Of a stretch of DNA of 64,000 nucleotides, positions 5,204-37,517 are shown one piece after another; the stretch's first letter is position 1, and every line of letters begins with the position of its first letter. The stretch comes from Akkermansiaceae bacterium (GTDB lineage Bacteria > Verrucomicrobiota > Verrucomicrobiia > Verrucomicrobiales > Akkermansiaceae). The position numbers and the translations under genes are program-made. Location: assembly GCA_905181965.1 (NCBI GenBank), contig CAJIZY010000002.1:1-64000 (forward strand), in the 5' to 3' direction. The notes below the pieces were generated by a model. It saw only the letters and a program-made list of their open reading frames with translations. It had not been told where the DNA came from and ran no database searches.

Positions 5204-5474
5204 GCTAAAAATTTACGCTTAGATCAGTAAAAATCTTTCCTAAAGGAATATTTTTTAGAGCCAATTTCTCTATTTGGAGGGGGTAGAGCCCGAAATTCGA
5301 GGAGATAAGGAAATTCAAACAGCATCCACCCATCCTGCCCACTAAGGGGTAAGCATAAAGCAACTTATCCTAAACTACTTATTGTCAAATTATATTTGGA
5401 GTGTTTTTCTAACAGAAGGTCTCAAGGAAATTCGTTTTCAGACGGACTCATTAACAAAGAACTTTCCATTAGTA

Positions 5475-6140: not shown

Positions 6141-6168
6141 GATTCCAATCTTTAATTTTCAAGCAGAG

Positions 6169-6203
6169 CGCAGGTTCGGTTAATCCCAATCCTGCGTTTT
6201 TTT
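6169..6203 (+). terminator. Candidate intrinsic terminator
   Basis: CGCAGG at 6169-6174 pairs with CCTGCG at 6191-6196 and is followed by seven T residues at 6197-6203. It lies 29 bp past the PEP-CTERM stop codon. The stem is only 6 bp with a 16-nt loop, so strength is uncertain. Confidence 0.6.
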
Positions 6204-6247
6204 CACCCGCTAAAACGGTATAAAAAGATTCAAATAGATTCATTAAT

Positions 6248-8317
6248 ATGAACATACAGACCAGCACCAGAAATTTACTGGCCGCCTCCATCAGTTTCGC
6301 TCTGATGGCAGGAGCAAGTGCCGCTACCATCGGCTTTGGGCCGGACCTATTGGGCGCTCAAGACACCCAATCCAATGGCACAAACAACCAGATGCGTCAG
6401 AACATCAACATCACCGATACGGTTTTCCTCGACGCAGGAACCTACCGGGCAACGACCTGGGACTATCAGGCTGCAGAAGATGCCTCAAATGGCGCTACCC
6501 AGCCAGTGTTCCCTTTCCTAACGATCGTCAACGGCGCCGCGGACCACACCGTTCTGGCGTTCGGAGCGACCATCGACACCGAACCGGGAATCCAGAATTT
6601 GGTTCCCTTCGGTGGAGCCGACGACACTTTCGTTGTTCCCGAAGGAGGTGCTACCATCGCAGCGGGCATTCAAAATACGAATGCCGATACGGTCCAAAAC
6701 AGCATCCTGACCGATACAAGCTTCGGCACAACCGACCACGCGAACGGATTAAATTTTGACGAAGCGGGCAGCGTTGGAGCCTCACTCACCTCGTTCGGAC
6801 ATGCAAACCTTCCTCGCACCTATGCCTTTTCGGTCGAAGTGGAACCGGTCGAACTCTCTAACCCAACACCCCCGGTCGTCACCGGTATAGAACCTAGCCT
6901 CAACTCAACCGAAGTCGCGATTAGCAGTGATCTGGTAGCGACATTCGACGAAATGATCGTGGCCGGTAACGGCAACATTACAATCAAGAACCTGACCGAC
7001 TCGACTCAGATCGCGATTCCGGTTAGCGACGCCCAAGTCACCATCAAGGGTGTTTTCTTGACCATCAAACCAACTGAATCTCTCGAAGGAGGCAAGGCAT
7101 ACGCCATCCAGATCGATGCGACCGCGATCGATGACACAACAGGAGATAACTTTACTGGAATCGAAGATGACGTGACGTGGGCTTTCAATACCGCTGCGCC
7201 CGACTTTGACGCCCCGGAAATAGAAACCCTCAATCCCGTTAATAGCGGAATAAATGTCCTCCTCGTAAGTGATCTCGAAGCGACTTTTGACGAACGAATC
7301 GCGATCGGCAGTGGTGACATCGTTTTAAAGAATCTCACCGACGGAACAGAGGTTGCAATCCCGGTGGGCGATGCCCAGGTTTCAATCTCAGGTAGCGTCA
7401 TGACAATCGACCCGACGGACGATCTCGAGCTTGGTAAAAACTATGCTGTCCAGATTGCTCCTACCGCAATCGATGACTTGGCAGGAAATAGCTTTGTGGG
7501 AATTAGCGATAACACAACTTGGAATTTTGCGACCCGGATTCCGGTGATTGGCGGTAGTATTATCGGTCCAGGTTCCGATATCACAGAAGCGATCCAATAT
7601 GACACCGCCAATCAAGAGCGCCTCAACATTGATCGAACAGCCTTTACCACCCTTAATGCGGGCACCTACAATGTGACCGACTGGCAGCTCAACGTCGTTA
7701 GGAGCAATGACGGCACCGGAGAAGTTACCCCAATGCTCCTGACCGGAACACCGCCATCCTATTCGATCTTGTGGCTCGGATCAGCATTCGATCCGGATCT
7801 CGATGGCATTCAAACCGTACTAGAGACAGGGAGCTTCACTCTCGAAGCTCCGACAGATATTTACGCTGGATTCTTCACAACCAACTTAGGTTCCGAAATC
7901 ATTGGGACAGACATCGATAATTCAGGCTCCGGATTCAGTTCAACTGATCACACCAACAATTTTATCGAGCCCACCGAGGTTGGCGAAACGATCGACAATT
8001 TCAGCCACTCCGGACTCGGTAGAACCTACGCTTTTGAGATTAACGTGGTAGAAGGCTCACAAAAGGGTCTTCAGATTACTAACATCAAATACCTCGATGA
8101 AGAAACCCCAAGAGTAGAATTCACCTTTAATTCCACTCCTGGACGTATCTATTTGATTGAGGCCTCTACCTCCCTGAAGCCCAATGGAGAACCCGGAGGA
8201 TGGATCGAGCTCGACGACGGTTTTGAAGCCGAAGGAGACGAGAGCACATACGTCGACTTACTTTCATTCGTCACCGGGCCGCGCGTCTTCTACCGCGTTA
8301 AATTGATGCCGCGTTAA
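6248..8317 (+). CDS. Surface protein: duplicated beta domain flanking two SbsA-type Ig-like domains
   Basis: 689 residues with a signal peptide ending near residue 25. Residues about 26-200 are a close paralogue of the preceding PEP-CTERM protein (shared TIGFG, DTQSNG.NNQMRQNIN, AGTY, VFPFLTIVNG, DHANGLNFD). Residues about 210-320 and 325-430 are two tandem bacterial Ig-like domains of the SbsA/Big_5 kind (PSLNSTEVAISSDLVATFDE; WAFNT and WNFAT at their ends). Residues about 440-610 look like a diverged third copy of the N-terminal domain (ITEAIQYDTANQERLNI, LNAGTYNVTDW, LPRTYAF-like LGRTYAFEINV). The last 80 residues (VEFTFNSTPGRIYLIEAS ... FYRVKL) are the C-terminal module common in verrucomicrobial exported proteins. 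There is no PEP-CTERM tail, unlike its neighbour. Function unknown, probably surface adhesion or glycan binding. Confidence 0.85.
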   Translation: MNIQTSTRNLLAASISFALMAGASAATIGFGPDLLGAQDTQSNGTNNQMRQNINITDTVFLDAGTYRATTWDYQAAEDASNGATQPVFPFLTIVNGAADHTVLAFGATIDTEPGIQNLVPFGGADDTFVVPEGGATIAAGIQNTNADTVQNSILTDTSFGTTDHANGLNFDEAGSVGASLTSFGHANLPRTYAFSVEVEPVELSNPTPPVVTGIEPSLNSTEVAISSDLVATFDEMIVAGNGNITIKNLTDSTQIAIPVSDAQVTIKGVFLTIKPTESLEGGKAYAIQIDATAIDDTTGDNFTGIEDDVTWAFNTAAPDFDAPEIETLNPVNSGINVLLVSDLEATFDERIAIGSGDIVLKNLTDGTEVAIPVGDAQVSISGSVMTIDPTDDLELGKNYAVQIAPTAIDDLAGNSFVGISDNTTWNFATRIPVIGGSIIGPGSDITEAIQYDTANQERLNIDRTAFTTLNAGTYNVTDWQLNVVRSNDGTGEVTPMLLTGTPPSYSILWLGSAFDPDLDGIQTVLETGSFTLEAPTDIYAGFFTTNLGSEIIGTDIDNSGSGFSSTDHTNNFIEPTEVGETIDNFSHSGLGRTYAFEINVVEGSQKGLQITNIKYLDEETPRVEFTFNSTPGRIYLIEASTSLKPNGEPGGWIELDDGFEAEGDESTYVDLLSFVTGPRVFYRVKLMPR

Positions 8318-8558
8318 TCTGGCCAACTGAGCTTAGACCGTAGCGAGAAGTCACCAGAACTATTCGAGTCAGTGAGAAACAATCGCCTGGAAATCAGAGC
8401 CTTGCACTATCAAATAGTCGCCAAGAACTTCCAACCTGCGATGTCGCCTTGAGGAAACTTCGTGACGGGAATCCCACTAATAAAAATCAAAGAAGCGGGT
8501 TCAATTAAGCGCGAATCATACTTGGAATTTTTCTCATTCGTGTGTGAATAAATAGAGA

Positions 8559-11500
8559 ATGACACTTTGTAAGACTCCTATTGCTTTGGCGCTCGTCCTG
8601 AGCTTCCTCGGATTGGTAAACCACCCGGTCTCGGCATCTCCTGACGGTGTTGTGGTATTCAATGAGGTGCAATATAATCCGACGGGGTCTGATGAGAGCG
8701 GCGAGTGGATCGAGTTATTCAACCAGATGGGGATCATCACCGACATCTCGGGGTGGCGGATCGACGGCATCGGATACACCTTCCTTAAAGGCACCTTAGT
8801 GAATCCAGGCAGTTATATTGTGATCGCCAAGACGCCGAGCGCTGGGGAGTTTGGCCCATTCACCGGGAGTATCGATAATGGTGGTGAGCGATTGAGACTT
8901 TATAATCAGAGCGACCGCCTCATGGACGAGCTCGACTTTGGCGATGATGCTCGATGGCCGGCCGCGGCAGACGGATCAGGAGCGACACTCGCCAAGCGGA
9001 AAGAGTACACCGCGAGTGGCAAATCGAACCTGTGGACTTATTCGGAGCAACTCGGAGGGACACGCCTCGCGGCCAACTTTCCTGATGCTGGAGGCCCTCC
9101 GCCCACGACAACCGTAGGCTTGATCACTCTCGCTGATGTTTGGAGATACAAGGACACTTCAGCTGATCCAGGCGCAGGCTGGGCTGCGAGCGCACATCCA
9201 ATTGGCGGCGATTGGAAGTCAGGGGCAGGCGGGATCGGTTTCGAAAGCGGCACCACCATTTCTCTGGGGACAGTGCTGAGCCACCCCAATGCCAACCCAA
9301 GCTATGTGTCCACTTATTACTATGAACGCGAGTTTGACTTAAGTGCCGCACAGTTGTCGGGATTGCAGTCCCTCAAATTGCGGCACGGCTTTGATGACGG
9401 CGCGGTGGTCTATCTCAACGGAACGGAAGTTTTGCGGGTGAATATGCCTGCCGGAGTCATCGACGCTAGCACCACAGCTCTCCGTGGCGTGGAAATCGAT
9501 AACCTTTCAGCCGATATGACACTCCCGACTAGCGCGCTGGTTTCAGGGAGTAATCGGATTTCAGTTGAAGTCCATCAGGAAAGAATCGGCAGCAGCGACA
9601 CCGTGTTCGGGGTCGAACTAGATGTGGAATTCGCTGGCGTGAATCCGAGTTCCGTTCCGATGCTTTCATTCAATGAAGTGCCGCCCGCGACTGAGACTAG
9701 CTTTTGGGTAGAGTTAATCAACAATGGTCCAGCTAATATCGATCTCGCAGGCATCGTCATCTCGGCTGGTAATGATCCATTGCGCCAGTATCAGCTCGAG
9801 GTTGGGCAACTCGCCCCGGAAGCCCTTCTTTTGATTGATGAGGCTGCTCTCGGCTTCAAGCCTGCTGATGGAGAGAAACTTTTTCTTTTTGATGCCAACG
9901 AGACGGTGGTTCTCGACGCCCGCGAGGTGACTGGGAGGCTCCGCGGCCGTGCCAAAGAAAGGAAGGGAACTTGGTGCTATCCGAACATTGCCACGCCAGG
10001 GTTGCCGAATATTTTTGTGTTCAATCAAGAAATCGTGATTAGTGAAATCGCATACAGTCCACCAGGTCTTGGGGGCAGTCCGGGGGTGCCACCGACATTC
10101 GATGTTATGCCACTAGTAGTGATGGGAGACAGCTGGAGGTATAATAGTGCCGATGTCGATTTGGCTCCTGATTGGGCAACCGAAGAACATCCGTCTGTCG
10201 GTAATTGGAAAACTGCGACAGGGCCAATTGGTTTTGAGACCGGTGCGTTACCGGTCTCACTTTCGACGGTCCTTCGCAACTATACTTCGTCGACCGTGAC
10301 TTACTACTATGAGACGGATTTTATTGTCTCAGCAGAAGTTTTTAACACCGCCGAGTCGCTGGTAATAACCCATCAAATCGATGACGGAGCCGCGTTCTAT
10401 ATCAACGGGGTACGGGTTGGCGAATTCAACTTGTCTTCGGGTGTACTCAACCCAGAGACCCTTGCAAGTCCAAGCGTTGGCAACGCGGCTATTGAGACCT
10501 TGCAGATCCCAGTGTCGAGTCTCATGATCGGCGCAAACCGGCTTTCGGTGGAGGTGCATCAGAGTAGCACGGGGAGCAGCGACACGGTATTCGGGGTTGG
10601 GCTTGATGCGCGGGTGCAAACTTCTCCCGGCATGGCGGCGTTGCCGTTTCGCAATTCAGATAACCAGTGGGTCGAGATTGCCAACCGTGGAGCAAGCGCG
10701 GTCGACCTTGGCGGCTGGGACTTCAACCGTGGGATCGCCTTCAGTTTCCCTGCAGGCACGATGCTTGCACCGGGGGAACATGCTTGCGTTGCACGTGATT
10801 CGGCTCTCTTTACCGCCGCGTTTCCCGGCGCCCGACTTCTTGGTGAGTTCTCGGGCTCTCTATCACGAACCAGCGAATACATCTTGCTACGTGATGCTCA
10901 CCGCAACCCGGTGGACGCACTCAGATACTTCGACGGAGGGCGCTGGCCTAAGGCTGCTGATGGTGGTGGTTCGACTTTGGAGTTGCGCGATTTGAACGCA
11001 GACAACGGCGATGCGGTGGCGTGGGCAGCGAGCGATGAGTCCAGCCGAACGGAGTGGAAGACTTACACTTATCGAGAGAGAGCAGCGAGTAGTCGTGGGC
11101 CGGACAATCAATGGCGCGAGTTCAATATGGGACTGCTTTCCGACGGCGAAATGCTGATCGATGATATCAGCGTGATCGAAAACCCCGACGGCGGTGCGGT
11201 GCAGAAGCTGAGCGATACGACCTTCAATAATTCTGCCGCTTGGAAACTTGTTGGAAATCATCGGCATGGAGAAATCATCGATGATCCGGATACCCCGGGG
11301 AATAAGGTTTTGCGGATCGTTGCCACGGGCGCGACCGAGCACATGCACAATCAGATTTTCACGAAACTCTCTTCGGCCATCTCAAATGGCACCGAGTATG
11401 AAATTTCGTTTCGCGCTCGCTGGGTTTCGGGTTCTCGACAGCTACACACGCGGCTCTATTTTAACCGCTGTGCCAACGTGAACCTTATTGATCGTCCTCA

Positions 11501-11675
11501 AGATGTCGGCACCCCATCTGCTCCTAACTCGCGTGCTGAGGGGAACATCGGGCCAACCTATTCGGGGATGAAGCACTCTCCGGCGGTACCCTCGGCGGGC
11601 GAGCCCACCACTGTTTCAGTGGTGGCAAACGACCCGGACGGCATTTCAAGCCTTACTCTTATTCTACTCGGTTAA
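8559..11675 (+). CDS. Lamin-tail/CotH-like surface protein, N-terminal part (fragment 1 of 3)
   Basis: 1,038 residues in this frame, starting with a signal peptide (ALALVLSFLGLVNHPVSA). A first lamin-tail domain covers about residues 30-140 (VVFNEVQYNPTGSDESGEWI; WIELFNQ). Two copies of a discoidin-like module follow: VWRYKDTSADPGAGWA... and SWRYNSADVDLAPDWA..., each with a conserved FDDGAVVYLNG/IDDGAAFYINGV and SVEVHQ..GSSDTVFGV. A second and third lamin-tail-like domain lie between and after them. The end reads DPDGISSLTL and then a stop, but the next frame continues with FYSVNGGAFQTVAM, so one extra base (or two missing) near 11661 breaks the gene. It belongs with the next two entries as one protein of about 1,850 residues. 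Role inferred: large exported surface protein. Confidence 0.85.
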   Translation: MTLCKTPIALALVLSFLGLVNHPVSASPDGVVVFNEVQYNPTGSDESGEWIELFNQMGIITDISGWRIDGIGYTFLKGTLVNPGSYIVIAKTPSAGEFGPFTGSIDNGGERLRLYNQSDRLMDELDFGDDARWPAAADGSGATLAKRKEYTASGKSNLWTYSEQLGGTRLAANFPDAGGPPPTTTVGLITLADVWRYKDTSADPGAGWAASAHPIGGDWKSGAGGIGFESGTTISLGTVLSHPNANPSYVSTYYYEREFDLSAAQLSGLQSLKLRHGFDDGAVVYLNGTEVLRVNMPAGVIDASTTALRGVEIDNLSADMTLPTSALVSGSNRISVEVHQERIGSSDTVFGVELDVEFAGVNPSSVPMLSFNEVPPATETSFWVELINNGPANIDLAGIVISAGNDPLRQYQLEVGQLAPEALLLIDEAALGFKPADGEKLFLFDANETVVLDAREVTGRLRGRAKERKGTWCYPNIATPGLPNIFVFNQEIVISEIAYSPPGLGGSPGVPPTFDVMPLVVMGDSWRYNSADVDLAPDWATEEHPSVGNWKTATGPIGFETGALPVSLSTVLRNYTSSTVTYYYETDFIVSAEVFNTAESLVITHQIDDGAAFYINGVRVGEFNLSSGVLNPETLASPSVGNAAIETLQIPVSSLMIGANRLSVEVHQSSTGSSDTVFGVGLDARVQTSPGMAALPFRNSDNQWVEIANRGASAVDLGGWDFNRGIAFSFPAGTMLAPGEHACVARDSALFTAAFPGARLLGEFSGSLSRTSEYILLRDAHRNPVDALRYFDGGRWPKAADGGGSTLELRDLNADNGDAVAWAASDESSRTEWKTYTYRERAASSRGPDNQWREFNMGLLSDGEMLIDDISVIENPDGGAVQKLSDTTFNNSAAWKLVGNHRHGEIIDDPDTPGNKVLRIVATGATEHMHNQIFTKLSSAISNGTEYEISFRARWVSGSRQLHTRLYFNRCANVNLIDRPQDVGTPSAPNSRAEGNIGPTYSGMKHSPAVPSAGEPTTVSVVANDPDGISSLTLILLG

Positions 11676-11700
11676 CGGTGGAGCGTTTCAGACTGTCGCA

Positions 11701-12771
11701 ATGGGTGGCGGCGCGGGTGGATTGTATAGCGGACAGGTCCCTGGGCAGTCATCCGGCGCGCGTGTGCAGTTCTATCTGACTGGTGCCGACTCGACCGGAG
11801 CCACGCAAACATTCCCTCAAGAGGGTCCGGACTCTAGGGCGATGTATCAAGTAAACGACGGTCTGGCGGCCACCAACGGCTGGCAAAATTTTCGCATTAT
11901 TATGACTGCGGCGGATTCCAGTTTCCAGCACCGGTCCATTGAAGTGATGAGCAATGACCGTCTCGGTGCCACCATCATCGATCGTGAGGGAGACATCTAC
12001 TATGGCTGCGGCGTGCGATTGAAAAGCAGCCAGCGTGGACGCGCCAATCTCAACCGCGTCGGCTACAGCGTGCGTTTCCCATCGGATGGGCTCTATCGCG
12101 GCGCGCTCGACTCGGTGGCGATAGACCGGTCGGAAAGCCAGAGGCCGGGGCAACGGGAATTGCTCTTCGACATCATGATTGCCAATTCCAACGGCGTCAT
12201 TAGCCGCTACTATGACTTCGTCAAAGTGCTTGCACCAAATTCATCGCTGACCGGCGGCGGACTCTTGCAGATGGCTCGCTACGGTGACGTCTTCCTTGAT
12301 TCGCAATTTGACAAGGGTGGTGATGGGCAGCTCTACGAGTATGAACTCATTTATTATCCAACAAGTGAGGATGGCAACGGTTTCAAGCGTCCACAACCTG
12401 ACAGTGTGACCGGATCGAGCGTCTCGAATGCTAGTGACGATCCAGAACTTTATCGCTGGTTCTTTCTCAATAAAAACAACCGGGAGGCCGACAATTTTGC
12501 GCCAATCATGGCCTACAATCAACATTTTCGCAATTCGGGAGCCTCCTTTGATGCTGGGCTTGAGGATGTCGTCGATGTTGACAGTTGGTTCCGAGGTATG
12601 GCCTACGCTGTCTTGAGCGGAGCGGGAGACAACGCCGGGTCTGGTAGCCAGCATAATGGGATGTATTACGCGCGCCCCGACGGACGTATCATGTTCCTGC
12701 CCGCACGACATGGACTTCGGTGCTGCCGGAGGGAATCCTACAGCATCGATCTTCGCCAACCGAGAATGTAG
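11701..12771 (+). CDS. CotH-like kinase region of the same surface protein (fragment 2 of 3)
   Basis: The true coding frame begins near 11662, immediately at the frameshift; ATG 11701 is merely the first start codon in frame. The segment carries an adhesin-like stretch (VQFYLTGADSTGATQTFP) and then what resembles the first half of a CotH-type kinase domain: FRIIMTAADSS, YYGCGVRLKSSQRG, VGYSVRFPSD, MARYGDVFLDSQFDKGGDGQ, and RWFFLNKNNREADNF. The frame is lost after GRIMFLP. The next frame resumes with HDMDFGAAGGN, the expected acidic metal-binding motif, if one C is removed from the CCC at 12700-12702. Assignment to CotH (protein/surface kinase) is by motif order and is moderately secure; phosphotransfer activity is not shown. 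Confidence 0.75.
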   Translation: MGGGAGGLYSGQVPGQSSGARVQFYLTGADSTGATQTFPQEGPDSRAMYQVNDGLAATNGWQNFRIIMTAADSSFQHRSIEVMSNDRLGATIIDREGDIYYGCGVRLKSSQRGRANLNRVGYSVRFPSDGLYRGALDSVAIDRSESQRPGQRELLFDIMIANSNGVISRYYDFVKVLAPNSSLTGGGLLQMARYGDVFLDSQFDKGGDGQLYEYELIYYPTSEDGNGFKRPQPDSVTGSSVSNASDDPELYRWFFLNKNNREADNFAPIMAYNQHFRNSGASFDAGLEDVVDVDSWFRGMAYAVLSGAGDNAGSGSQHNGMYYARPDGRIMFLPARHGLRCCRRESYSIDLRQPRM

Positions 12772-14131
12772 CAAGCTGGCAAATTCGAGTTCGACGCCTG
12801 GCAATGCGCAACGCCGACGTATCTACTTCGGCATTCTTCACGACATTGTCACGACGACATGGAACAGCGCTTACATGTCAAATTATACGACTCACTTGGC
12901 GTCGCTGGACTCGCGTCAGAACTGGGCTGGCAAGCTCAACTCTTTTGATCGACGCCGCAACTACGTGCTCACCCAGATCAATAACTCCATCGCTCCCACC
13001 AATTTTTCAATCACCACGCCTTCGCCATTGACGGTGGCATCGAGTACGGCAACGGTTTCTGGCAAAGGATGGGTGAACGTTCGGGAGATCCGCCTAGCTG
13101 GCAGTTCTGATCCGCGGGCGGTCGAATGGATGGATGGTAATTCTTGGGCGGTGAATATCCCGGTGGCACCAGGCTCACATGCTTACCGAATTGAGGCCTA
13201 TGATTTTTCTGGGGAGCTCATCGAAACCGATACGATTAGGGTCGATAACAATGGAACGGTTGAACCGGCTTCTACCTTGAATCTCGCCGTCTCCGAGTTG
13301 ATGTACAATCCATCCGCCCCGACGGCAGCAGAGGTGAATTCTGGATTTGCTGATGCTGACCTGTTCGAATTCATCGAGCTGACCAACATCGGAACTTTGG
13401 ACGTCGATCTCACAGAAGTGAGCTTTACCGCTGGCATCAATTACGATCTGCCAGCGATAGTTATCCCATCGGGTGAGCGAGTCATCCTCGCCCGTAACCG
13501 TGATGCTTTCCTCTTACGCCATCCGGGGATGGCCCCATTTTTGCTTACCGGCGAATACGGGATTGGTGACACAAACAAGCTCGCCAATGGCGGTGAGCTT
13601 ATTGTAATTCAAGATGGATTGGGTGGCGATATCCGTCGTTTTACCTACAACGATAAATTTCCCTGGCCCAATGTTTCTGACGGTGATGGACCAAGCTTAG
13701 TGTTGATCGCGCCCGATACAAATCCTGATCATGCCCTCCCATCGAATTGGCGAGCTAGTGCTATTTCCGGCGGTAACCCGGGTTCTTCAGACGCCAAGTC
13801 CTTCGTTGGGGATCCCAATGCTGACCTCGACAACAACGGCGTCCGCGACCTCGTCGATCACGCTTTGCTTGGCGATGGCTTGCAGATTCTGACCTTCAGT
13901 GGCTCGACGGTTGGTTTCGAATTTAATCGTGACCTCGCTGCAGACGACGTGGTAGTCGGACTTCAAGTCTCAACTGATTTGTCAAATTGGACGAATGGCT
14001 CTGAATTGTTCTCGGCGTTAGATCCGATCTACCTTGGGACAGGGGGGCAGCGAATACGTTATGAAGCTCAGAGCTCAGAATTGCCGGCAGAGCGCTTTTT
14101 CATCAGACTGCAGGTGGTGCTGACCAAGTAA
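12656..14131 (+). CDS. C-terminal part of the lamin-tail/CotH-like surface protein (fragment 3 of 3)
   Basis: The conserved frame joins at about 12703 (LP|HDMDFGAAGGN); sequence between 12656 and 12702 in this frame is out-of-frame read-through. It completes the CotH-like kinase region (YFGILHDIVTTTWNSAYM; LASLDSRQNWAGKL; RRNYVLTQI), followed by a beta domain (TTPSPLTVASSTATVSGKGW), another lamin-tail domain (LAVSELMYNPSAPTAAEV; EFIELTNIGTLDVDLTEVSF), a linker with an EF-hand-like DPNADLDNNGVRDLVDHALL, and the common verrucomicrobial C-terminal module ending RFFIRLQVVLTK. No PEP-CTERM tail is seen. Together the three fragments span 8559-14131. Confidence 0.78.
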   Translation: MGCITRAPTDVSCSCPHDMDFGAAGGNPTASIFANRECSKLANSSSTPGNAQRRRIYFGILHDIVTTTWNSAYMSNYTTHLASLDSRQNWAGKLNSFDRRRNYVLTQINNSIAPTNFSITTPSPLTVASSTATVSGKGWVNVREIRLAGSSDPRAVEWMDGNSWAVNIPVAPGSHAYRIEAYDFSGELIETDTIRVDNNGTVEPASTLNLAVSELMYNPSAPTAAEVNSGFADADLFEFIELTNIGTLDVDLTEVSFTAGINYDLPAIVIPSGERVILARNRDAFLLRHPGMAPFLLTGEYGIGDTNKLANGGELIVIQDGLGGDIRRFTYNDKFPWPNVSDGDGPSLVLIAPDTNPDHALPSNWRASAISGGNPGSSDAKSFVGDPNADLDNNGVRDLVDHALLGDGLQILTFSGSTVGFEFNRDLAADDVVVGLQVSTDLSNWTNGSELFSALDPIYLGTGGQRIRYEAQSSELPAERFFIRLQVVLTK

Positions 14132-14202: not shown

Positions 14203-16077
14203 ATGAAACAACCAATTCTCAAGATTTTCATGCTCGGCCTAGGCCTCGCCGGGCTAGCTGGCACAGTTTGGGTCATCACATCCATGATCAAAGAAGATCC
14301 GGATCGTTCTAGCTCAGGTCTTGCGCGCGGACCATTCAAGACGCGCCACGCAAAGGATTATCAACGACCAACTCAGGTTGCAGTGGACGGAGACTCGACC
14401 AGTATTGATTTTTCCAGCGTAGGAGCGAAAACGGCTGCCGATTTACAATTAGAAAATCTTGATCCAGGCAAGGCCGGTTGGGACACCGAATTGCAAAGCG
14501 ACTCTGCGGCCCGCGCGCTCACCCTTATTTTCGACAAAGATGGTGTCGATAAGCCGATCGCTGAGGACTTTCGGGGGACTCCGCTCAGGCCTGATTTGGT
14601 TGAAATCTATTCCAGTGATGGGATCCAAGTTCGGCGCTTGCAAGTCGGACAGTCTGGTGACGAAGTCCACGCTTTTGATAAGGTTGCCTTTCTTAAGGCA
14701 CTCCCAAAGCAACATGGCACTAGAAAGATTATTCGTATTTCACGGAAGGGGAATGAGGGCAATTTCTCCACTCGGGTCATCGCTTCCACCCACGATGAAT
14801 CCGGCGTCGGGAAATGGCATCAAACAACCAGTGTATGGGATTGCAACTGGGAAGTCTCAGCTCTCGAATCTGACGGATTACCACGTCTAAAACGACTCAC
14901 GCTGCTTTCCCACGAAGAGGTCACTCGCACTGGAAAAAAACCGCTATTTGAAGATATCGCAGGCAACGTACTCCCAGAAGAAATCGGTCCGCACGATTCG
15001 CCTGTGACACACTGGGCTCGATCCTTGACCAAAATCGATGATATGCATTTTGCGGGGCACCACGGAATCGCAGTCGGCGATGCGAATGGTGATGGACTGG
15101 ACGATCTGTATGTTTGCGACTGCGGCGGTTTGCCCAACCGCCTTTATTTGCAGAACCCGGAAGGCACCACCCGCGACGTTTCGGCGCAGGCTGGCGTCGA
15201 CTGGCTCGAGTCTTCCAAGTCGGCGCTATTCCTCGATCTCGACAATGATGGCGATCAGGATCTCGTCGTCGCGACAGTCGCTCTGCTGCTCGTCTTGGAA
15301 AACAATGGCAAGGCAACCTTTTCGCTGCGCGGTGGAATACCGGGCATGTCGAACCCGCAGTCTTTGTCCGCGGCTGACTACGACGGCGATGGCGATCTCG
15401 ATCTGTTCGTCTGCAACTACGGCACCGATTCGTCCGCCGGCGGTCTGCGGGGATCTACGGCCGGAATACCACTGCCGTTTAACGATGCCGAAAACGGTGG
15501 TCGTAATGCGCTGCTACGAAATGACGGCAGTCTACAATTTTCAGATGTTACGAGCGCCGCTGGAATTGCTACGGGTAGCGATCGTTGGAGCTTCGCCGCT
15601 TCATGGGAAGACTACGACAATGACGGAGATCAAGACCTCTATGTTGCTAACGACTTCGGCCGTAATAATCTATTCCGCAATGACGCCGGTCGGTTCACGG
15701 ATGTTGCTGCCGCTGCCGGCGTAGAGGACATTTCATCCGGGATGTCAGTGGCGTGGAGCGATGCCAATCGAGATGGTAGGATGGATGTCTACGTCAGCAA
15801 TATGTTCTCGTCTGCCGGGGGGCGCGTTGCATTTCAGCGACAGTTCGGCAAGGGCAATCCGGGCGCGACTGCCGATTTGCAACGGATGGCACGCGGCAAC
15901 ACCCTTTTCCTTGGGAGCGACATGGGGAAATTTGATGATGTGAGCGAGTCTGCCGGAGTCAATGTCGGCCTCTGGGCATGGAGTTCGCAATTCGCGGATC
16001 TCAACAACGATGGTTGGCAGGACTTGGTCGTCGCAAATGGTTACATGACCAACGAGGTCGGCGGTCCCGATTTGTGA
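14203..16077 (+). CDS. FG-GAP/ASPIC-UnbV protein, N-terminal part ending at an in-frame TGA (segment 1 of 3)
   Basis: ATG 14203 is preferred over the TTG at 14176 because it follows GGGCGAGAG and begins a proper signal anchor (MKQPILKIFMLGLGLAGLAG). The first 250 residues lack recognisable motifs. Then FG-GAP/VCBS calcium-binding repeats appear: GDANGDGLDDLYVCD, DLDNDGDQDLVVA, DYDGDGDLDLFVC, DYDNDGDQDLYVAND, DANRDGRMDVYVSN, DLNNDGWQDLVVAN. The frame stops at TGA 16075-16077 directly after NEVGGPDL. The same frame continues without any shift as SFYWRQVVSPSP, sequence conserved in this family, so the TGA lies inside the domain. Family members are exported beta-propellers of unknown activity. 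Confidence 0.85.
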   Translation: MKQPILKIFMLGLGLAGLAGTVWVITSMIKEDPDRSSSGLARGPFKTRHAKDYQRPTQVAVDGDSTSIDFSSVGAKTAADLQLENLDPGKAGWDTELQSDSAARALTLIFDKDGVDKPIAEDFRGTPLRPDLVEIYSSDGIQVRRLQVGQSGDEVHAFDKVAFLKALPKQHGTRKIIRISRKGNEGNFSTRVIASTHDESGVGKWHQTTSVWDCNWEVSALESDGLPRLKRLTLLSHEEVTRTGKKPLFEDIAGNVLPEEIGPHDSPVTHWARSLTKIDDMHFAGHHGIAVGDANGDGLDDLYVCDCGGLPNRLYLQNPEGTTRDVSAQAGVDWLESSKSALFLDLDNDGDQDLVVATVALLLVLENNGKATFSLRGGIPGMSNPQSLSAADYDGDGDLDLFVCNYGTDSSAGGLRGSTAGIPLPFNDAENGGRNALLRNDGSLQFSDVTSAAGIATGSDRWSFAASWEDYDNDGDQDLYVANDFGRNNLFRNDAGRFTDVAAAAGVEDISSGMSVAWSDANRDGRMDVYVSNMFSSAGGRVAFQRQFGKGNPGATADLQRMARGNTLFLGSDMGKFDDVSESAGVNVGLWAWSSQFADLNNDGWQDLVVANGYMTNEVGGPDL

Positions 16078-16107
16078 AGTTTTTACTGGCGGCAGGTCGT
16101 GTCGCCA
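16075..16107 (+). promoter_or_regulatory. In-frame TGA followed by a SECIS-like hairpin (possible selenocysteine site)
   Basis: TGA 16075-16077 sits in a continuous reading frame. Downstream, TGGCGGCA (16087-16094) pairs with TGTCGCCA (16100-16107), 8 bp with one G-T pair, leaving an apical loop GGTCG. The loop begins 17 nt after the TGA. Bacterial SECIS elements lie directly downstream of the UGA and have a short stem with a G in the first loop positions; that of E. coli fdhF has a GGUC-containing loop at a similar distance. Against this, the hairpin also encodes the conserved WRQVV, and a plain nonsense mutation or sequence error is possible. No selA, selB or selC is in this window. Confidence 0.35.
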
Positions 16108-16848
16108 TCACCGACGGATTTCACCGACAAGGAGGCGGTTGGTGAGTATGCAAATGCTTGGACAGCCATCATGAAATCGGCGCGCTCAGGAAGTTCGTGG
16201 AGCGGCTCGGAGACGAACCGCACTTTTCTGAACACTGGTGGGGGACGTTTTGCGGACGCCTCTTACGTCTCCGGGTTCGGATTCGATGACGACGGGCGGG
16301 CGTTGGCCGTAACCGACTGGGATGGCGATGGTGACCTCGATTTGTGGGCACACAATCGCACCGCGCCGCGCTTGCGCCTGCTACGCAACAACTCACCACA
16401 GGCGAATCGTTCGGTGGCGTTCCGACTGGAGGGTGGCAATAATTCAAATCGCGATGCGATTGGGGCCCGACTAAAGCTGACGCTCTCCAATGGTAGCGAA
16501 CTTCTGCAGACGCTGCGTGCAGGTAGTGGATTTCTTTCTCAATCATCAAAATGGATCCACTTTGGAATCGATCCTGGGGCGTCACCATCTTCGCTCCATG
16601 TGATTTGGCCGGATGGGGTTGAAGAGTCGTTTCCCGGGATCGCGGCAGGTGAGCGCTACCGCCTTACGGAAGGGGGAGCGCTGCGGAGGGCTGCTCCGCG
16701 TGCCGCTGTTCACCTAGGGCTAGCTCGGCAACGAACGATCGCACCGCAGCCTTCCCGGGCAGATGGTTTTACCAGGGAGAATTCCGCTTCCGGAGTTCCG
16801 CTACATCCCAGCGGGGAAATTGGAACCCGCCGGACTTCTCCGAGGTGA
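16078..16848 (+). CDS. ASPIC/UnbV domain of the same FG-GAP protein (segment 2 of 3)
   Basis: This segment is in the same frame as the gene that stops at 16077. It starts SFYWRQVVSPSP, includes another FG-GAP repeat (TDWDGDGDLDLWAHN), and has a clear ASPIC/UnbV domain: RSVAFRLEGGNNSNRDAIG, LLQTLRAGSGFLSQSS, WIHFGIDPGA and VIWPDGVEESFPG. An independent start (ATG 16171 or GTG 16099) would leave the domain order broken and no signal peptide, so it is best read as a continuation. After about 16760 the frame becomes meaningless and coding resumes in another frame with MVLPGRIPLPEF, pointing to one gained base (or two lost) near 16755-16765. Confidence 0.8.
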   Translation, partial: SFYWRQVVSPSPTDFTDKEAVGEYANAWTAIMKSARSGSSWSGSETNRTFLNTGGGRFADASYVSGFGFDDDGRALAVTDWDGDGDLDLWAHNRTAPRLRLLRNNSPQANRSVAFRLEGGNNSNRDAIGARLKLTLSNGSELLQTLRAGSGFLSQSSKWIHFGIDPGASPSSLHVIWPDGVEESFPGIAAGERYRLTEGGALRRAAPRAAVHLGLARQRTIAPQPSRADGFTRENSASGVPLHPSGEIGTRRTSPR

Positions 16849-17680
16849 GAAGCCGCTCCTCATAACTCTTTTCTCAGGAACCTGTGAGTCCTGCACCGAG
16901 GAGTTGCACGAGTTCGCACAGGAGGAGGAGCGCATCAAGGCTGCCGGTCTCGAGGTGCTCGCTCTCTCGGTTGACAAGTTGGTGGTCGGGTCCGATCATT
17001 TTGCAGCAGACAAGCTAGTTACGGCGAGCAAGTTTCCTTTTCCAACCGGGACAATCACGCCTCTCAGCGCGGATCACCTGCGCTTCTTACTCAAGTCGCT
17101 TTACGATTTCCCGGCATCGTTCTCAGTCCCCATCAGCCTCCTATTAGATGAGGAACGACGCCTATTCGCAATATATCGAGGTCGAGTTTCGACTGATCTG
17201 ATCCTCCACGATGTCGCTTTCTCGAAAGCGAGTGACAACCAGCTTCGTGATCTTTCGGTGCCCTTCCCCGGCAGTTGGTTCACGACTCCGATTGCTTCAT
17301 CCGAGCTTGCAGAGTTGATTGCGAGCCCGTTCCACCGCACCTTTCCTGATCAAGGGTTGCGTTATCTTGAGCACGCGTTGACGAGCCCGAACTCGAAAAC
17401 TCGTAACGCACGGCTAAAACGAAGAGTGAGTGGAGGCTATTACCGGCTCGCATGGCAGGAAGATTCCAAGGGCAGTAAGAGCAAGGCGGTCGCCTATTAC
17501 AAAAAAACGCTCGCGATAAATCCTAGTAATTCCAAAGCGCGTACCGACTTCGGTGCACTGCTTGGAAAGCAAGGGAAACTCAACGAGGCTGAAGCGCAAT
17601 TCCGCATGGCCTTGGAGCTCGACCCTGACAACCAAGTTGCCAAGAAAAACCTAGAACTGGTGATTCGGAAGCGACGTTAG
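16763..17680 (+). CDS. Redoxin-TPR C-terminal part of the FG-GAP/ASPIC-UnbV protein (segment 3 of 3)
   Basis: About 305 residues. A thioredoxin-like domain occupies residues about 10-150, with a CxxC pair in FSGTCESCTEELHEF and the strand pattern LLITLF ... VLALSVDKL ... VPISLLLDEERRLFAIYRG. The C-terminus has TPR repeats (KAVAYYKKTLAINPSNSKA; EAEAQFRMALELDPDNQVA). FG-GAP/ASPIC-UnbV proteins fused to a redoxin and TPR tail occur in the PVC group, and no signal peptide or good start precedes this segment, so it is the C-terminal part of the gene starting at 14203, separated by a frameshift near 16760. Whether the CxxC is redox-active is not shown. Confidence 0.8.
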   Translation: MVLPGRIPLPEFRYIPAGKLEPAGLLRGEKPLLITLFSGTCESCTEELHEFAQEEERIKAAGLEVLALSVDKLVVGSDHFAADKLVTASKFPFPTGTITPLSADHLRFLLKSLYDFPASFSVPISLLLDEERRLFAIYRGRVSTDLILHDVAFSKASDNQLRDLSVPFPGSWFTTPIASSELAELIASPFHRTFPDQGLRYLEHALTSPNSKTRNARLKRRVSGGYYRLAWQEDSKGSKSKAVAYYKKTLAINPSNSKARTDFGALLGKQGKLNEAEAQFRMALELDPDNQVAKKNLELVIRKRR

Positions 17681-19390: not shown

Positions 19391-21133
19391 ATGAATATAT
19401 TCCCCACTCTTTCCAAAACCCGGCTTGGCAGCACTGTCTTTTGCCTCTTGGCATCAACCGTTTTTTGTAACGCCCAGAAATCATCGCCATCGGAAAACCC
19501 TCCCTCCTTGGAAGAAACCCGGACCATCGGGCGCGCGAACTCAGCACTCTTGGCAAAAAAACAAGCGATCAAAGCGGCGAACGGAAAACCATCTGCCAAT
19601 CTCGCAGACTTCAAGAAGCATATTTCACCAATTCTCACCAAGACCTGTGTTCAGTGCCATGGCCCCAAAAAAGCCAAGGGCAAATTTCGGATCGATACCC
19701 TCGATCCCAATCTCATCGAGGGAGGTGATATCGATTGGTGGCTAGAGGTTCTAGATGCCGTAAGCAATGACGAGATGCCTCCTGAAGATGCCGAGGTGAA
19801 ACTCACCAGCGGAGAAACCAGCAAGGTCACAGAATGGCTAAGTTCTGAAATTCAGAAAGCTTCAACGGAGCGACGTCATGAGGGTGGTCATTCATCGTTC
19901 CGTCGTATGGCGCGATACGAATACGATTACGCGTTGCAAGATCTACTTGGACTCTCCTACTCACTCTCTGAAAACCTGCCTCCTGAAGCTGATTCGGAAA
20001 ATGGATTCAAAAACAGCTCAGAAACGCTGCAAATGTCTGCAATGCAGTTTGAGACTTATCGTGAGATAGCGCTCAAAGCGCTTGAACACACCACCGTGGT
20101 GGGTGAGCAACCTAAGGTCACCGTCTATCAGCTCCCCAATTCAGACGAGGCTTCATCGACCCTTGATCGCGACCAGGTTAGCAAAACTCACATCCTCACC
20201 CAAAAAACAAAAAAAGGTCAGGCTCCTCCAGAAACCGTCATTTTTGACCAGGGGAATCGGTCCGTGAAATTTAATCTGAGCAATCACCTGCCCGACCAAG
20301 GCACGATGCGCATCACTCTCCGGGCCGGACGCTCAACGATGAAAACTGATGAATTTGCGAGCCTCCGTTTTATTTTTAGCGCTCATACAAGTAACAATGC
20401 CAACTTTTCCGAGGTCATCAGCAAACACGCGATTCCGGTGACAGGCTCGCTGTCTGAGCCACAATTAATCCACCTAGATATTCCTCTCAGCGAAATCCAG
20501 CGAAACCCATTCCGAAACAACAAGGAAACATTCCCGAGACGCGACGAATTTCTAACCATTGAATGCCAGTCAAAAACTCGGGGGAAGGAACCGCTCAGTA
20601 TCACTCTTGATTTTATCGAAATTTGCGCACCCTTTTTTGAACAATGGCCACCCCAAACCCATCGTGATATTTTCTTTGAAAGCCCGAATAAAAACGAAGA
20701 GGTAGAATATGCTCGTGAGGTCTTAACTCGATTCATGAAACGAGCGTGGCGGCGCCCCGTAAGCTTAAATGAAGTGGCGCCCTTCGTCACGTTGTTCATG
20801 AAATATCGACCTGAGTTTTCGACGATGGAGGAAGCGATGATTGAGGTGCTGGCAACGGTCCTTGCAACACCGGAGTTTCTTTATCTAACACAGGAGGATT
20901 CTTCGACAATTAGCGAAACCGAATTAGCCAGCCGGCTTTCCTTTTTTCTTTGGTCCAGCATACCAGACAAAAAGCTTAAAGACCTCGCGAAGGAAGGAAC
21001 ACTGCGGGATCCCAGCAGTTCTTGGGAGCTCAGATCACACGTATGTTGGCCGATCCTCGGTCCGCAAGATTCTCGAAACACTTCGTTCAGCAATGGCTCG
21101 GTTTGGATGGGCTCAATAGCGTTGTCCATGTGA
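19391..21133 (+). CDS. DUF1592-type exported cytochrome, N-terminal and middle part (fragment 1 of 3)
   Basis: 580 residues in this frame, the last 30 or so out of frame. It begins with a signal peptide and a planctomycete-type cytochrome domain with heme motif CVQCH at residues 86-90 and a MPPEDAEVKL segment. DUF1587-like sequence follows (RRMARYEYDYALQDLLGL; GFKNSSETLQMSAMQFETY), then a beta domain, then DUF1595/DUF1592 (FMKRAWRRPVSLNEVAPFV; EVLATVLATPEFLYL; LASRLSFFLWSSIPDKKL). The frame is lost after LRDPSS near 21020. The next frame supplies LGAQITRMLADPR, the expected continuation. The fragments together span 19391-21904, about 838 residues, with a DUF1552 partner 14 bp downstream. Confidence 0.87.
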   Translation: MNIFPTLSKTRLGSTVFCLLASTVFCNAQKSSPSENPPSLEETRTIGRANSALLAKKQAIKAANGKPSANLADFKKHISPILTKTCVQCHGPKKAKGKFRIDTLDPNLIEGGDIDWWLEVLDAVSNDEMPPEDAEVKLTSGETSKVTEWLSSEIQKASTERRHEGGHSSFRRMARYEYDYALQDLLGLSYSLSENLPPEADSENGFKNSSETLQMSAMQFETYREIALKALEHTTVVGEQPKVTVYQLPNSDEASSTLDRDQVSKTHILTQKTKKGQAPPETVIFDQGNRSVKFNLSNHLPDQGTMRITLRAGRSTMKTDEFASLRFIFSAHTSNNANFSEVISKHAIPVTGSLSEPQLIHLDIPLSEIQRNPFRNNKETFPRRDEFLTIECQSKTRGKEPLSITLDFIEICAPFFEQWPPQTHRDIFFESPNKNEEVEYAREVLTRFMKRAWRRPVSLNEVAPFVTLFMKYRPEFSTMEEAMIEVLATVLATPEFLYLTQEDSSTISETELASRLSFFLWSSIPDKKLKDLAKEGTLRDPSSSWELRSHVCWPILGPQDSRNTSFSNGSVWMGSIALSM

Positions 21134-21252
21134 CCGACGGCGCACTAATGGAAGCCATGCAAGAAGAGCCCATCGCCTTCTTTAAATACGTCCTCAACAA
21201 CAACCAGGAGCCTAATGGACTTCCTTCACTCGGACTATGCTATGTTGAATGA
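21022..21252 (+). CDS. DUF1592 middle segment of the same cytochrome (fragment 2 of 3)
   Basis: A short frame carrying conserved DUF1592 sequence: GAQITRMLADPRSARFSKH, FVQQWLGLDGLNSV, LMEAMQEEPIAFFKYVLNNN. The conserved part starts at about 21026. The frame is lost after NNNQ. Removing one G from the GG at 21207-21208 gives NNNQSLMDFLHSDYAMLNE in the next frame, so a single extra base explains the break. Not an independent gene. Confidence 0.75.
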   Translation: MGAQITRMLADPRSARFSKHFVQQWLGLDGLNSVVHVTDGALMEAMQEEPIAFFKYVLNNNQEPNGLPSLGLCYVE

Positions 21253-21904
21253 ACGGATGGCTGCACATTACCAAATTCGCGATATTTATGGCCCTCAATT
21301 TCGCAAAGTTTCAATTGAACCTAACACCAATCGCGGCGGAATTCTGACAAATGCCGCAATCCTCACTATGAATTCTGACGGCAAGGATTCTCACCCACTC
21401 AAACGCGGAATCTGGATGCTTGAACGAATTCTCGATGACCCGCCACCGCCCGCGCCACCAAATGTTCCGGAAGTCGATTTGACCGATCCAAAAATCCTCG
21501 AGATGACGCTCAAGGAGCGCATCGAGGATCACCGCAACAAACCAGCCTGCATTTCATGCCATGCTAAAATCGACCCTTGGGGAATTGCCTTCGAAAACTA
21601 TGACGCCTTAGGCGTTTACCGAACCAAAATCAAAAACAAACCGGTTGATGCGACCTCAGCCTTGTTCAACAAGCAGGAATTAGCTGGGATGGAAGGCCTG
21701 AAGCGCTATCTGCTGGCGGAGCGTCAGGACCAATTTGCGAGAGCAATGGTTCACAAAATGACTTCTTATGCCCTTGGCCGTCCACTAACTTTTAGTGACC
21801 ATGCTGAAATCGAAGCCCTGACAGTTCAATTTCGAAAAAAGGAAGATCGCTTACGGGATTTGATATACCTAATCATTTATAGCAGTATCTTCAATTCTAA
21901 CTAA
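21215..21904 (+). CDS. DUF1588/DUF1585 C-terminal part of the same cytochrome (fragment 3 of 3)
   Basis: 229 residues in this frame, beginning MDFLHSDYAMLNERMAAHY, which completes DUF1592. It continues into DUF1588 (NRGGILTNAAILTMNSDGKDS; SHPLKRGIWMLERILDDPPPP), with the motif CISCHAKIDPWGIAFENYD that gives the protein its second CxxCH, and ends with DUF1585 (ALGRPLTFSDHAEIEAL; LRDLIYLIIYSSIF). The C-terminus is complete. The downstream DUF1552 gene begins 14 bp later and is the standard operon partner. Confidence 0.82.
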   Translation: MDFLHSDYAMLNERMAAHYQIRDIYGPQFRKVSIEPNTNRGGILTNAAILTMNSDGKDSHPLKRGIWMLERILDDPPPPAPPNVPEVDLTDPKILEMTLKERIEDHRNKPACISCHAKIDPWGIAFENYDALGVYRTKIKNKPVDATSALFNKQELAGMEGLKRYLLAERQDQFARAMVHKMTSYALGRPLTFSDHAEIEALTVQFRKKEDRLRDLIYLIIYSSIFNSN

Positions 21905-21918
21905 TACCTAAGAGTCCT

Positions 21919-23316
21919 ATGACAACCAAAACCACCGACATGAATCGCCGAAATTTTCTTCGAGGAACAGGCGTTGCCCTTGGTTTGCCATGGCTTGAGA
22001 CCTTTGCGGTAGATGATTCAAATCCCAACCCTGCTCCAAAACGCTTTCTCAGTGTTTATCATCCCGATGGGGTTGGCTTACCCGTCAGGGAAGATCCAGC
22101 TTGGAAGGATTGGAGTTGGTTTCCCCGAGGTGGCGAAAGAAGTTTCAAACTCACAAAAGTACTCGACGTTCTCGAGCCCTTGCGAAAGGAGATCACGATC
22201 TACTCAGGACTCTCCCACCCGGCAGCGAGAACAGTTCATGGTCATTCTAATGCCGACCAATATCTGACCGGCGCAGACATAGGAGGACATGGAGCCTACA
22301 AAAACTCGATCTCGATTGACCAAGTTTATGCCGAACAGATAGGGCAATTCACACGTCATTCCTCGTTAGTAATGTCGACCAACGGAGGGGTGGGCGGCCC
22401 AAGAGGAGCCCAGACCCAATCCTACAATCGGAGCGGACGGCCCATCCCTGCCTTAAATCACCCAAAGCAAATTTTTGACATGCTCTTTGTCACAAGCGGC
22501 AAAGAAGCAGCAGCAAAATTGGCCCGAAGCAAAAGCGCCCTCGATCTTCTCATCGCCAACACTCACTCGTTGGGCCGCAAACTTTCTCGATATGATCAAG
22601 AAACTCTAGAACAGTATCTTGATGCCGTTCGTGATACTGAAGTGAAGTTGGAGAAGGCACGGCAGTGGATCGATAACCCAGTCCCCAAGGTGGACACCAC
22701 TAACCTCACTCTGGAAGCTGGGCCCAAGGAAGCGCAACTTTACTTCGAGACAATGTATGAGCTGATCTATCTCTCCTTCTTGAGTGATTCGACCCGCGTT
22801 GCGACCTTCCAGCTTGGTCGCGAAAATGGCGGCGGACCTCACAACCTTCTCTCAACGGCCGTTGGCTTAGGAAATGCTCATGCCCTAACGCACGCCGTCA
22901 AAAAACCCAAAGGCTGGGAGAATCTGGGAACCTACAACCGCTACCAAGCAGAAGAATTTGGCCGTTTCATCCAGAAGCTGAAGGACACGAAAGAGCCCAA
23001 CGGGCAAGGAAACATCCTCGACAACACCTTTGCAATGCATGGTTCCGCGTCCAGCAGTTTCCACCTCTCCCGCAACTACCCCATCATATCTGCAGGCGGA
23101 AAAAACCTAGGCTTCGAGAATGGTCGTTATCTCAAATTCGGCAAAGGCAATGAGGACAACCAAGCCGGCGCCGGAATTGTGACCGACAGTGGATGGAGGG
23201 GTAAGGTGGAGGTTGAAGAACTCCCACTCTCCAAACTCTTTACCACCATCTTGCAGAGACTCGGGGTAGAGGCGAATTCCTTCGCAGGAATTACCGGCAC
23301 CCTAGAGCGAGTGTAA
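21919..23316 (+). CDS. DUF1552 family exported protein
   Basis: 465 residues with a Tat-like signal (MNRRNFLRGTGVALGLPWLE). The sequence matches DUF1552 throughout: FLSVYHPDGVGLPV near residue 40, FKLTKVLDVLEPLRKEITIYSG, VHGHSNADQYLTGAD, YAEQIGQFTRHSSLVMSTNG, RYDQETLEQYLDAVRDTEVKL-like SRYDQETLEQYL, and GAGIVTDSGWRGKVEVEELPL near the C-terminus. DUF1552 is related to DUF1501 and is regularly encoded directly behind DUF1592-type cytochromes, as here. ATG 21919 is followed by a second in-frame Met at the start of MNRRNF, either of which could be used. Function not established. Confidence 0.92.
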   Translation: MTTKTTDMNRRNFLRGTGVALGLPWLETFAVDDSNPNPAPKRFLSVYHPDGVGLPVREDPAWKDWSWFPRGGERSFKLTKVLDVLEPLRKEITIYSGLSHPAARTVHGHSNADQYLTGADIGGHGAYKNSISIDQVYAEQIGQFTRHSSLVMSTNGGVGGPRGAQTQSYNRSGRPIPALNHPKQIFDMLFVTSGKEAAAKLARSKSALDLLIANTHSLGRKLSRYDQETLEQYLDAVRDTEVKLEKARQWIDNPVPKVDTTNLTLEAGPKEAQLYFETMYELIYLSFLSDSTRVATFQLGRENGGGPHNLLSTAVGLGNAHALTHAVKKPKGWENLGTYNRYQAEEFGRFIQKLKDTKEPNGQGNILDNTFAMHGSASSSFHLSRNYPIISAGGKNLGFENGRYLKFGKGNEDNQAGAGIVTDSGWRGKVEVEELPLSKLFTTILQRLGVEANSFAGITGTLERV

Positions 23317-37485: not shown

Positions 37486-37517
37486 TATTGCTTGTAAGTC
37501 ACTTTTTCAAAAAATCT

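Follow-up and report, generated by a model that had tools for sequence, protein, structure and literature searches.

The window analysed here, a stretch of 64,000 nucleotides at the start of contig CAJIZY010000002.1 of an Akkermansiaceae bacterium (GCA_905181965.1), carries a gene for an FG-GAP/ASPIC-UnbV protein whose reading frame is crossed by a TGA triplet at 16075-16077. The question raised by this locus is whether the triplet ends the protein or is translated as selenocysteine (Sec). An initial annotation had put the gene forward as a possible new selenoprotein, and this proposal is now strongly supported by the conservation of the TGA, by cysteine at the same place in some homologues, by a covarying hairpin and by the presence of SelA, SelB and SelD. 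On this comparative evidence, the gene very probably encodes a selenoprotein and TGA 16075-16077 is very probably its Sec codon.

The gene and its surroundings

The main features of the locus, all on the forward strand, are as follows.

8556-14131, +: neighbouring large protein with Lamin-tail domains (LTD), in three frames here and in one frame of 1401 aa in the orthologue locus L107.
14203-16848, +: FG-GAP/ASPIC-UnbV gene read through the TGA at 16075, with the same TGA in six same-genus orthologues; the proposed Sec is residue 625, counting from the ATG at 14203.
15064-16398, + (bounds approximate): FG-GAP repeats (Pfam PF13517/PF01839), a predicted propeller whose nearest fold match, searched with the model of the L107 orthologue, is CRTAC1.
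16075-16077, +: in-frame TGA, the proposed Sec codon, identified by its conservation in homologues.
16087-16107, +: bacterial SECIS-like hairpin of 8 bp with apical loop GGTCG at 16095-16099, from folding and covariation.
16456-16659, +: UnbV_ASPIC domain (Pfam PF07593).
16745-16760, +: departure of the window copy from the frame of four orthologues, a length difference of one base.
16763-17680, +: TlpA/ResA-like thioredoxin-fold domain and TPR repeats (Pfam AhpC-TSA and TPR; A3 profile; Foldseek match of the L107 model to ResA).
16883-16894, +: CxxC (CESC) of the thioredoxin-like domain, from the translation and from the nearly invariant A3 columns C894/C897.

The observation that the frame is the same on both sides of the TGA holds, with 670 open codons before it and 256 after it. 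FG-GAP repeats precede the TGA and the UnbV_ASPIC domain follows it, and the presence of both places the product among the ASPIC/UnbV FG-GAP (CRTAC1-like) proteins. The C-terminal redoxin-like domain with CxxC that had been attributed to this protein is also present and has the thioredoxin fold and motif of a TlpA/ResA-like domain; in the window copy it and the TPR repeats are out of frame with the ASPIC part, owing to the one-base difference near 16752, whereas in the relatives L007, L008 and L011 the two parts form one frame as far as their loci reach. This break and the splitting of the upstream neighbour into three frames suggest that the window assembly probably carries indels. The neighbour has a weak CotH match too in L107, and in 18 of the 51 loci flanked by 3 kb or more, the window included, an LTD- or CotH-domain protein is encoded no more than 6 kb from the gene, with both domains in 12 of them; this is an association with the gene and not an assignment of function. 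Further downstream, the window contains DUF1595/DUF1587/DUF1592 (PSD-type) and DUF1552 genes at 19391-23316, and the DUF1592 match stops early near 21133, perhaps at another frame break.

Conservation of the TGA and of the hairpin behind it

Homologues were collected from 58 genomes (the organism's own and those of relatives) with the protein ending before the TGA as the query. In six same-genus genomes the orthologues are 84-96% identical and carry the same TGA in six of six cases, continuing in frame as SFFWRQVV or SFYWRQVV. From the stronger rows of this search 60 stretches were picked by hand, an alignment spanning the site (A1) was made from TGA-bearing members, and the best 80 of 532 relatives, ranked by their similarity to A1, were added as loci. 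Among 245 loci, 157 of the 185 distinct aligned sites hold TGA, a fraction that does not describe a random sample, given the A1-based choice of relatives. The tryptophan at +4 is kept in 165 sites, of which 157 have TGA, four TGC, one TGT, two GAC and one CCG, and it is this conservation that raises the TGA with its hairpin above chance; the other 20 aligned matches, without W at +4, represent other blades or subfamilies with various codons. The commonest motif at the TGA site is D-L-U-S-F-F-W-R-Q-V-V. According to their record titles, the TGA-bearing loci come from Verrucomicrobiota, Planctomycetota and Acidobacteriota, and the titles of the 80 named loci, nearly all of them metagenome-assembled genomes, include Akkermansiaceae, Roseibacillus, Pirellulales, Phycisphaerales and Holophagales.

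A search with A1 at E <= 1e-25 gave 203 matches in 30 of the 58 genomes, up to 18 in one genome. Every match listed contains exactly one TGA, and the cysteine-bearing member L033 (G051) is absent among the matches listed. In the organism's own genome five matches span the site, each with one TGA. Coding sequence is conserved on both sides of the in-frame TGA in the homologues, and in the complete frames collected the sequence beyond it runs on for hundreds of codons without a stop. At G000:C6:35100-35834 (+) and 36763-37497 (-) the organism's own genome has L054 and L055, a convergent pair of divergent copies with one TGA each.

The hairpin is as first described, with 8 bp formed between 16087-16094 and 16100-16107, one G-U pair, the loop GGTCG, 17 nt from the TGA to the loop and a minimum free energy (MFE) of -13.7 kcal/mol. 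Its fold by itself is weak evidence (z-score -1.42; 21 of 200 shuffled sequences fold as well). The published rules for bacterial SECIS elements (bSECIS), as given in the accessible text of PMC13188914, allow a loop of 3-9 nt, a stem of 4-16 bp, a G in loop positions 1-2, a spacing of 16-37 nt and an MFE of at most -7.5; the hairpin, with its loop of 5 nt beginning GG, falls within all of them, and its stem covaries, so that the earlier judgement of stem, loop and spacing as acceptable stands. These loose rules are satisfied by 295 of the 2407 TGA triplets on both strands of the window. A stricter rule defined here (GGU loop, stem of at least 6, spacing of 16-20 nt) is satisfied by two of the 2407; the second, at 55235 on the - strand, is flanked by just 25 and 9 open codons, and of the two it is 16075 alone that lies between long open frames. 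Across the family, 89 of 104 rows satisfy the published rules in their own MFE fold and 15 fail, while the strict rule is satisfied by 65 of the 104 TGA members and failed by 39.

Evidence that the stem is kept as a stem comes from a gapless alignment of 104 sequences (A2). Its column pair 18-28 is paired in 96 sequences by six types of pair (AU 42, GU 34, CG 11, GC 6, UG 2, UA 1, with 8 unpaired), and column pair 20-26 is AU in 88, GC in 10 and GU in one, with 5 unpaired. Double-change cells number 31, against a mean of 7.4 after shuffling, with none of 500 shuffles as high, and against 5-7 when the pairing is slid, and the covariation score is 0.183, against 0.024-0.087 when slid; on one of the five measures, the number of pairs with double changes, the value of 3 is reached by 42 of 500 shuffles. 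The outermost two stem pairs hold in only 63 and 31 of the 104 sequences, and the family-wide stem is mainly one of six pairs. L221 differs at both positions of one stem pair, where its codons are AGG and CCT, and the divergent members L054 and L034 have a rebuilt stem, GAGCAC/GTGCTC, enclosing GGTC. RNAalifold predicted no pairs for all 104 rows together; for the 89 rows keeping all six core pairs, a choice of rows that favours this answer, it returned the helix at -10.1 kcal/mol.

It had been feared that the hairpin might be no more than the code for WRQVV. The codons in question are nearly fixed among their synonyms: GTC stands at +7 in 148 of 157 cases (41% in the background of the same genes), GTG at +8 in 136 of 141 valines (34%), TCG at +9 in 113 of 122 serines (21%) and, right after the TGA, AGT in 117 of 151 serines (11%). 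This codon use and the compensatory changes answer that doubt, and a mere coding constraint on WRQVV is ruled out by the near-fixed synonymous codons taken with the covariation. By these comparative measures the hairpin appears to be conserved as a structure and not only as code.

Selenocysteine machinery and other readings of the UGA

The check for selA, selB, selC and selD proposed with the initial annotation succeeded for three of the four genes. The organism's own genome encodes SelA (486 bits), SelB (310 bits) and SelD (385 bits), all over the curated cut-offs. No match to tRNA-Sec reached its cut-off in this assembly, which is 61.6% complete, though close relatives have it. In the orthologue genomes G004, G006, G015, G017, G020 and G025 the tRNA-Sec matches reach 53.6-55.0 bits (cut-off 47). 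Matches over the cut-off occur in 40 of 58 genomes and in 24 of the 30 genomes with the family, and some of the 40, at 48-50 bits and 84-86 nt, may belong to other long tRNAs; ARAGORN reports tRNA-SeC (tca) at eight of the eight best-scoring loci, which are from other relatives. The organism's SelD itself has one in-frame TGA, in the motif CGG-U-ASK (L246, about position 1530; G000:C22). This resembles the UxxK motif listed for Sec-SelD (PMC13188914, Table 1), and SelD is therefore likely to be a second, conventional selenoprotein of the organism.

The family and SelB tend to occur together. SelB passes the cut-off in 27 of the 30 genomes with the family versus 10 of the 28 without it in the own and related set, and in 80 of 94 versus 133 of 249 in the planctomycete sample; the Fisher values of 1.7e-5 and 1.8e-8 overstate this evidence because the genomes are related. 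It is also found in 64 of 70 planctomycete genomes with a TGA row among the matches listed and in 17 of the 20 named genomes behind the family loci, and is below the cut-off or absent in 3 of the 30 and 14 of the 94 genomes with the family. In the decoding that we propose, SelB with Sec-tRNA would read UGA 16075-16077 as Sec, guided by the hairpin at 16087-16107.

The residues that replace the putative Sec bear on this reading from both sides. The earlier suggestion that relatives may carry cysteine here is borne out by five homologues, L184, L033, L079, L082 and L096. The first of these, from Phycisphaerales SJ659 (frame 4816-8814), has TGC within the full motif and still has the Sec-type stem codons, its hairpin satisfying the loose rule and failing the strict one, and is likely to represent a recent Sec-Cys exchange; the other four share a D-Y-C motif with W at +4. 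Further relatives have Asp in two cases and Pro in one. Unrelated residues at the site had been named in advance as a sign against a selenoprotein, and here the outcome is divided: the site is mostly TGA, with some Cys, while all 17 stop-free planctomycete paralogues, chosen for having no stop from 20 such among the matches listed, carry other residues (E in five, Q in three, A in two, D in one, R in four and N in two; Cys in none). This outcome counts against a plain Sec/Cys family. The strict hairpin rule is satisfied by none of the 17 and the loose rule by seven. These proteins can be read as paralogues that lost Sec, because they are a minority of those examined, none has the strict hairpin, and 11 have the C-terminal domain without CxxC.

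The C-terminal domain was aligned in 79 sequences, and CxxC is present in 62 of 67 TGA members, in the one Cys member and in none of the 11 others, in which the two cysteines give way to D, V or M and to S, T or a gap. These counts, like those for C305 below, are from frames of 700-1450 aa complete in their loci and from longer stretches, with L318 (no motif) left out. Five Sec members have the domain without CxxC, mostly with Ser instead (L019, L160, L125, L177 and L131), and six lack the domain, one of them, L316, being cut by a contig end. In a FastTree tree built without the site columns the type of residue at the site changes five times in all, and the link between Sec and CxxC amounts to one independent event, so that its Fisher value of 4.8e-10 is not to be taken at face value. 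The association is suggestive and not proof. C305 of the propeller, considered as a resolving cysteine, is not supported in this role, since it is kept in four of five Glu paralogues and in the Asp one and is absent in 16 of 73 Sec members. In the planctomycete loci L299-L309 the Sec is replaced by E, Q, A or D and CxxC is missing, and some of their genomes also have TGA copies.

A reading of the UGA with an ordinary amino acid, by a near-cognate or suppressor tRNA and with a hairpin that only stimulates read-through, could draw on these paralogues, whose residue at the site is E, Q, A, D, R or N and never Cys. It is nevertheless very improbable, given that the hairpin is of the bSECIS type and covaries, that the family is associated with SelB, that other homologues have Cys at the site, and that the strict hairpin and CxxC are missing together from the stop-free paralogues, the former in all 17 against 65 of 104 TGA members having it, the latter wherever they bear the domain. 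A shade less probable again is a selenium-dependent switch, in which the full-length protein with its ASPIC, thioredoxin-like and TPR parts and a shorter one that stops within the propeller would both be functional. Sec insertion generally competes with termination, and termination at the UGA would remove all downstream domains, as such a switch would have it; the conservation of these domains and the Cys at the site in some members speak against it. Finally, a sequencing error or a decaying stop in a broken copy has practically no probability left. The frame break near 16752 and the three-frame neighbour do make indels probable, but the TGA is shared by six same-genus orthologues and recurs at 157 distinct sites in many assemblies, with open frames downstream, and this conservation across independent assemblies refutes both an error and a pseudogene.

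Proposed chemistry, known relatives and spread of the family

With Sec as the preferred reading of the UGA, the architecture of the product suggests where the residue may act. The model of the orthologue L107 (1158 aa, from an alignment of 44 sequences) has a mean pLDDT of 87.9 and a pTM of 0.89, and its best Foldseek match is murine CRTAC1 (9etn; E 4.5e-24, TM 0.68 by target length), with ResA (1st9) matched at E 2.3e-6; a profile search with A3 gave TlpA 1jfu at 2.3e-15, ResA 1st9 at 4.2e-11 and CRTAC1 at 6.3e-19. The chain would thus combine an FG-GAP propeller like that of CRTAC1 with an ASPIC domain, a CxxC domain of the TlpA/ResA type and TPR repeats. In the model the Sec place, 625, lies at the N-terminus of a short helix (624-633) in the propeller part. 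A hydrophobic helix at residues 13-30, in a stretch of low confidence, would fit a membrane anchor or signal, and the product is accordingly predicted to be anchored or exported. We infer that Sec carries out a redox reaction outside the cytoplasm and that the oxidised Sec is reduced by the CxxC domain of the same chain; the six Sec members without the domain and the five without CxxC would need another reductant. We are less sure of this chemistry, extracytoplasmic Sec redox recharged by the protein's own CxxC domain, than of Sec insertion, and belief and doubt in it are about equally weighted.

The gene resembles the known bSECIS-dependent selenoproteins of bacteria, such as the E. coli formate dehydrogenases and SelD, in its in-frame UGA, in the placing of the hairpin 17 nt further on, in the G at the start of the loop and in the presence of SelA, SelB and SelD in the genome. 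It shares with CRTAC1 and other ASPIC/UnbV proteins the FG-GAP repeats and ASPIC domain recognised by Pfam, as well as the fold match to the murine protein, and differs from them by the Sec codon, by the motif DLUSFFWRQVV and, in most members collected, by the C-terminal thioredoxin-like domain. This domain is like the TlpA/ResA thiol-disulfide oxidoreductases in profile and in CxxC, but it forms part of a much larger protein whose putative Sec lies in the propeller part, outside the CxxC site. A thioredoxin-like domain is also found in the catalogued TlpA, redoxin and Prx-like selenoproteins (UGC, UxxC); judged by their motif names, these and WAxxUGC_long have Sec in the thioredoxin-like motif itself. 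The TPR stretch resembles NCBIfam WAxxUGC_long, with a weak, TPR-only match of 20.3 bits (cut-off 300).

None of the 119 selenoprotein families in Table 1 of a catalogue of May 2026 (PMC13188914) is named FG-GAP, ASPIC/UnbV or CRTAC1-like, and an FG-GAP/ASPIC selenoprotein is not among the new families in the accessible part of the deep-Sep paper (PMC12013277). A search of 19 members against NCBIfam (June 2026) returned XAC2610_fam in 19 of 19 (best E 4.6e-6; 22.4 bits for the first member, cut-off 35) and four weak others, none of them named as a selenoprotein. A literature search covering accessible text returned no report linking selenocysteine with FG-GAP or a selenoprotein with ASPIC/UnbV. 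We found no catalogue entry for an FG-GAP/ASPIC selenoprotein family, and an earlier listing in supplementary tables, such as the planctomycete table of PMC4807772, is possible. A plasmid search gave 13 records at less than 60% identity, and the 10 listed are annotated as CRTAC1, VCBS or FG-GAP or have no annotation.

The family is frequent among the relatives of the window's organism (30 of 58 genomes) and among planctomycetes, yet patchy. Of 387 genomes drawn evenly from the organism's own phylum, 18 have matches at E <= 1e-10, of which G000 and G397 alone have TGA-bearing ones, whereas 94 of 343 genomes from Planctomycetota, the phylum of the genome containing L136, have matches at E <= 1e-25; the planctomycete matches listed mostly contain one TGA, and at least 20 have no stop. 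The largest bacterial set reported in the accessible part of PMC12013277 has at least 46 selenoprotein genes of all families together, to be compared with up to 18 matches to this one family in a single genome here.

It is an even question whether these genes form a very large uncatalogued superfamily of cell-envelope selenoenzymes, with Sec in an FG-GAP beta-propeller and a thioredoxin-like domain in the same polypeptide to recharge it. If they do, the lineages of Verrucomicrobiota and Planctomycetota with as many as 18 matches per genome would be major users of selenium, redox chemistry would be implied for some CRTAC1-like proteins, selenium chemistry would be placed in the envelope of environmental bacteria, and a first lead would be gained on the role of ASPIC/UnbV propeller proteins. 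Gene callers that treat UGA as a stop would truncate such proteins, and the ASPIC, thioredoxin-like and TPR parts would be lost. The Sec, Cys and Sec-less paralogues would also make a natural series for asking why Sec is kept.

Two further loci are of note. On a planctomycete contig of 9.5 Mb, in a genome with SelB, L296 (G561:C1) contains two tandem TGA copies of a divergent type (DT-U-STWWRRF), and a family match at G474:C78:24677-25468 has three in-frame TGA triplets, which may stand for several Sec residues or for a decayed copy.
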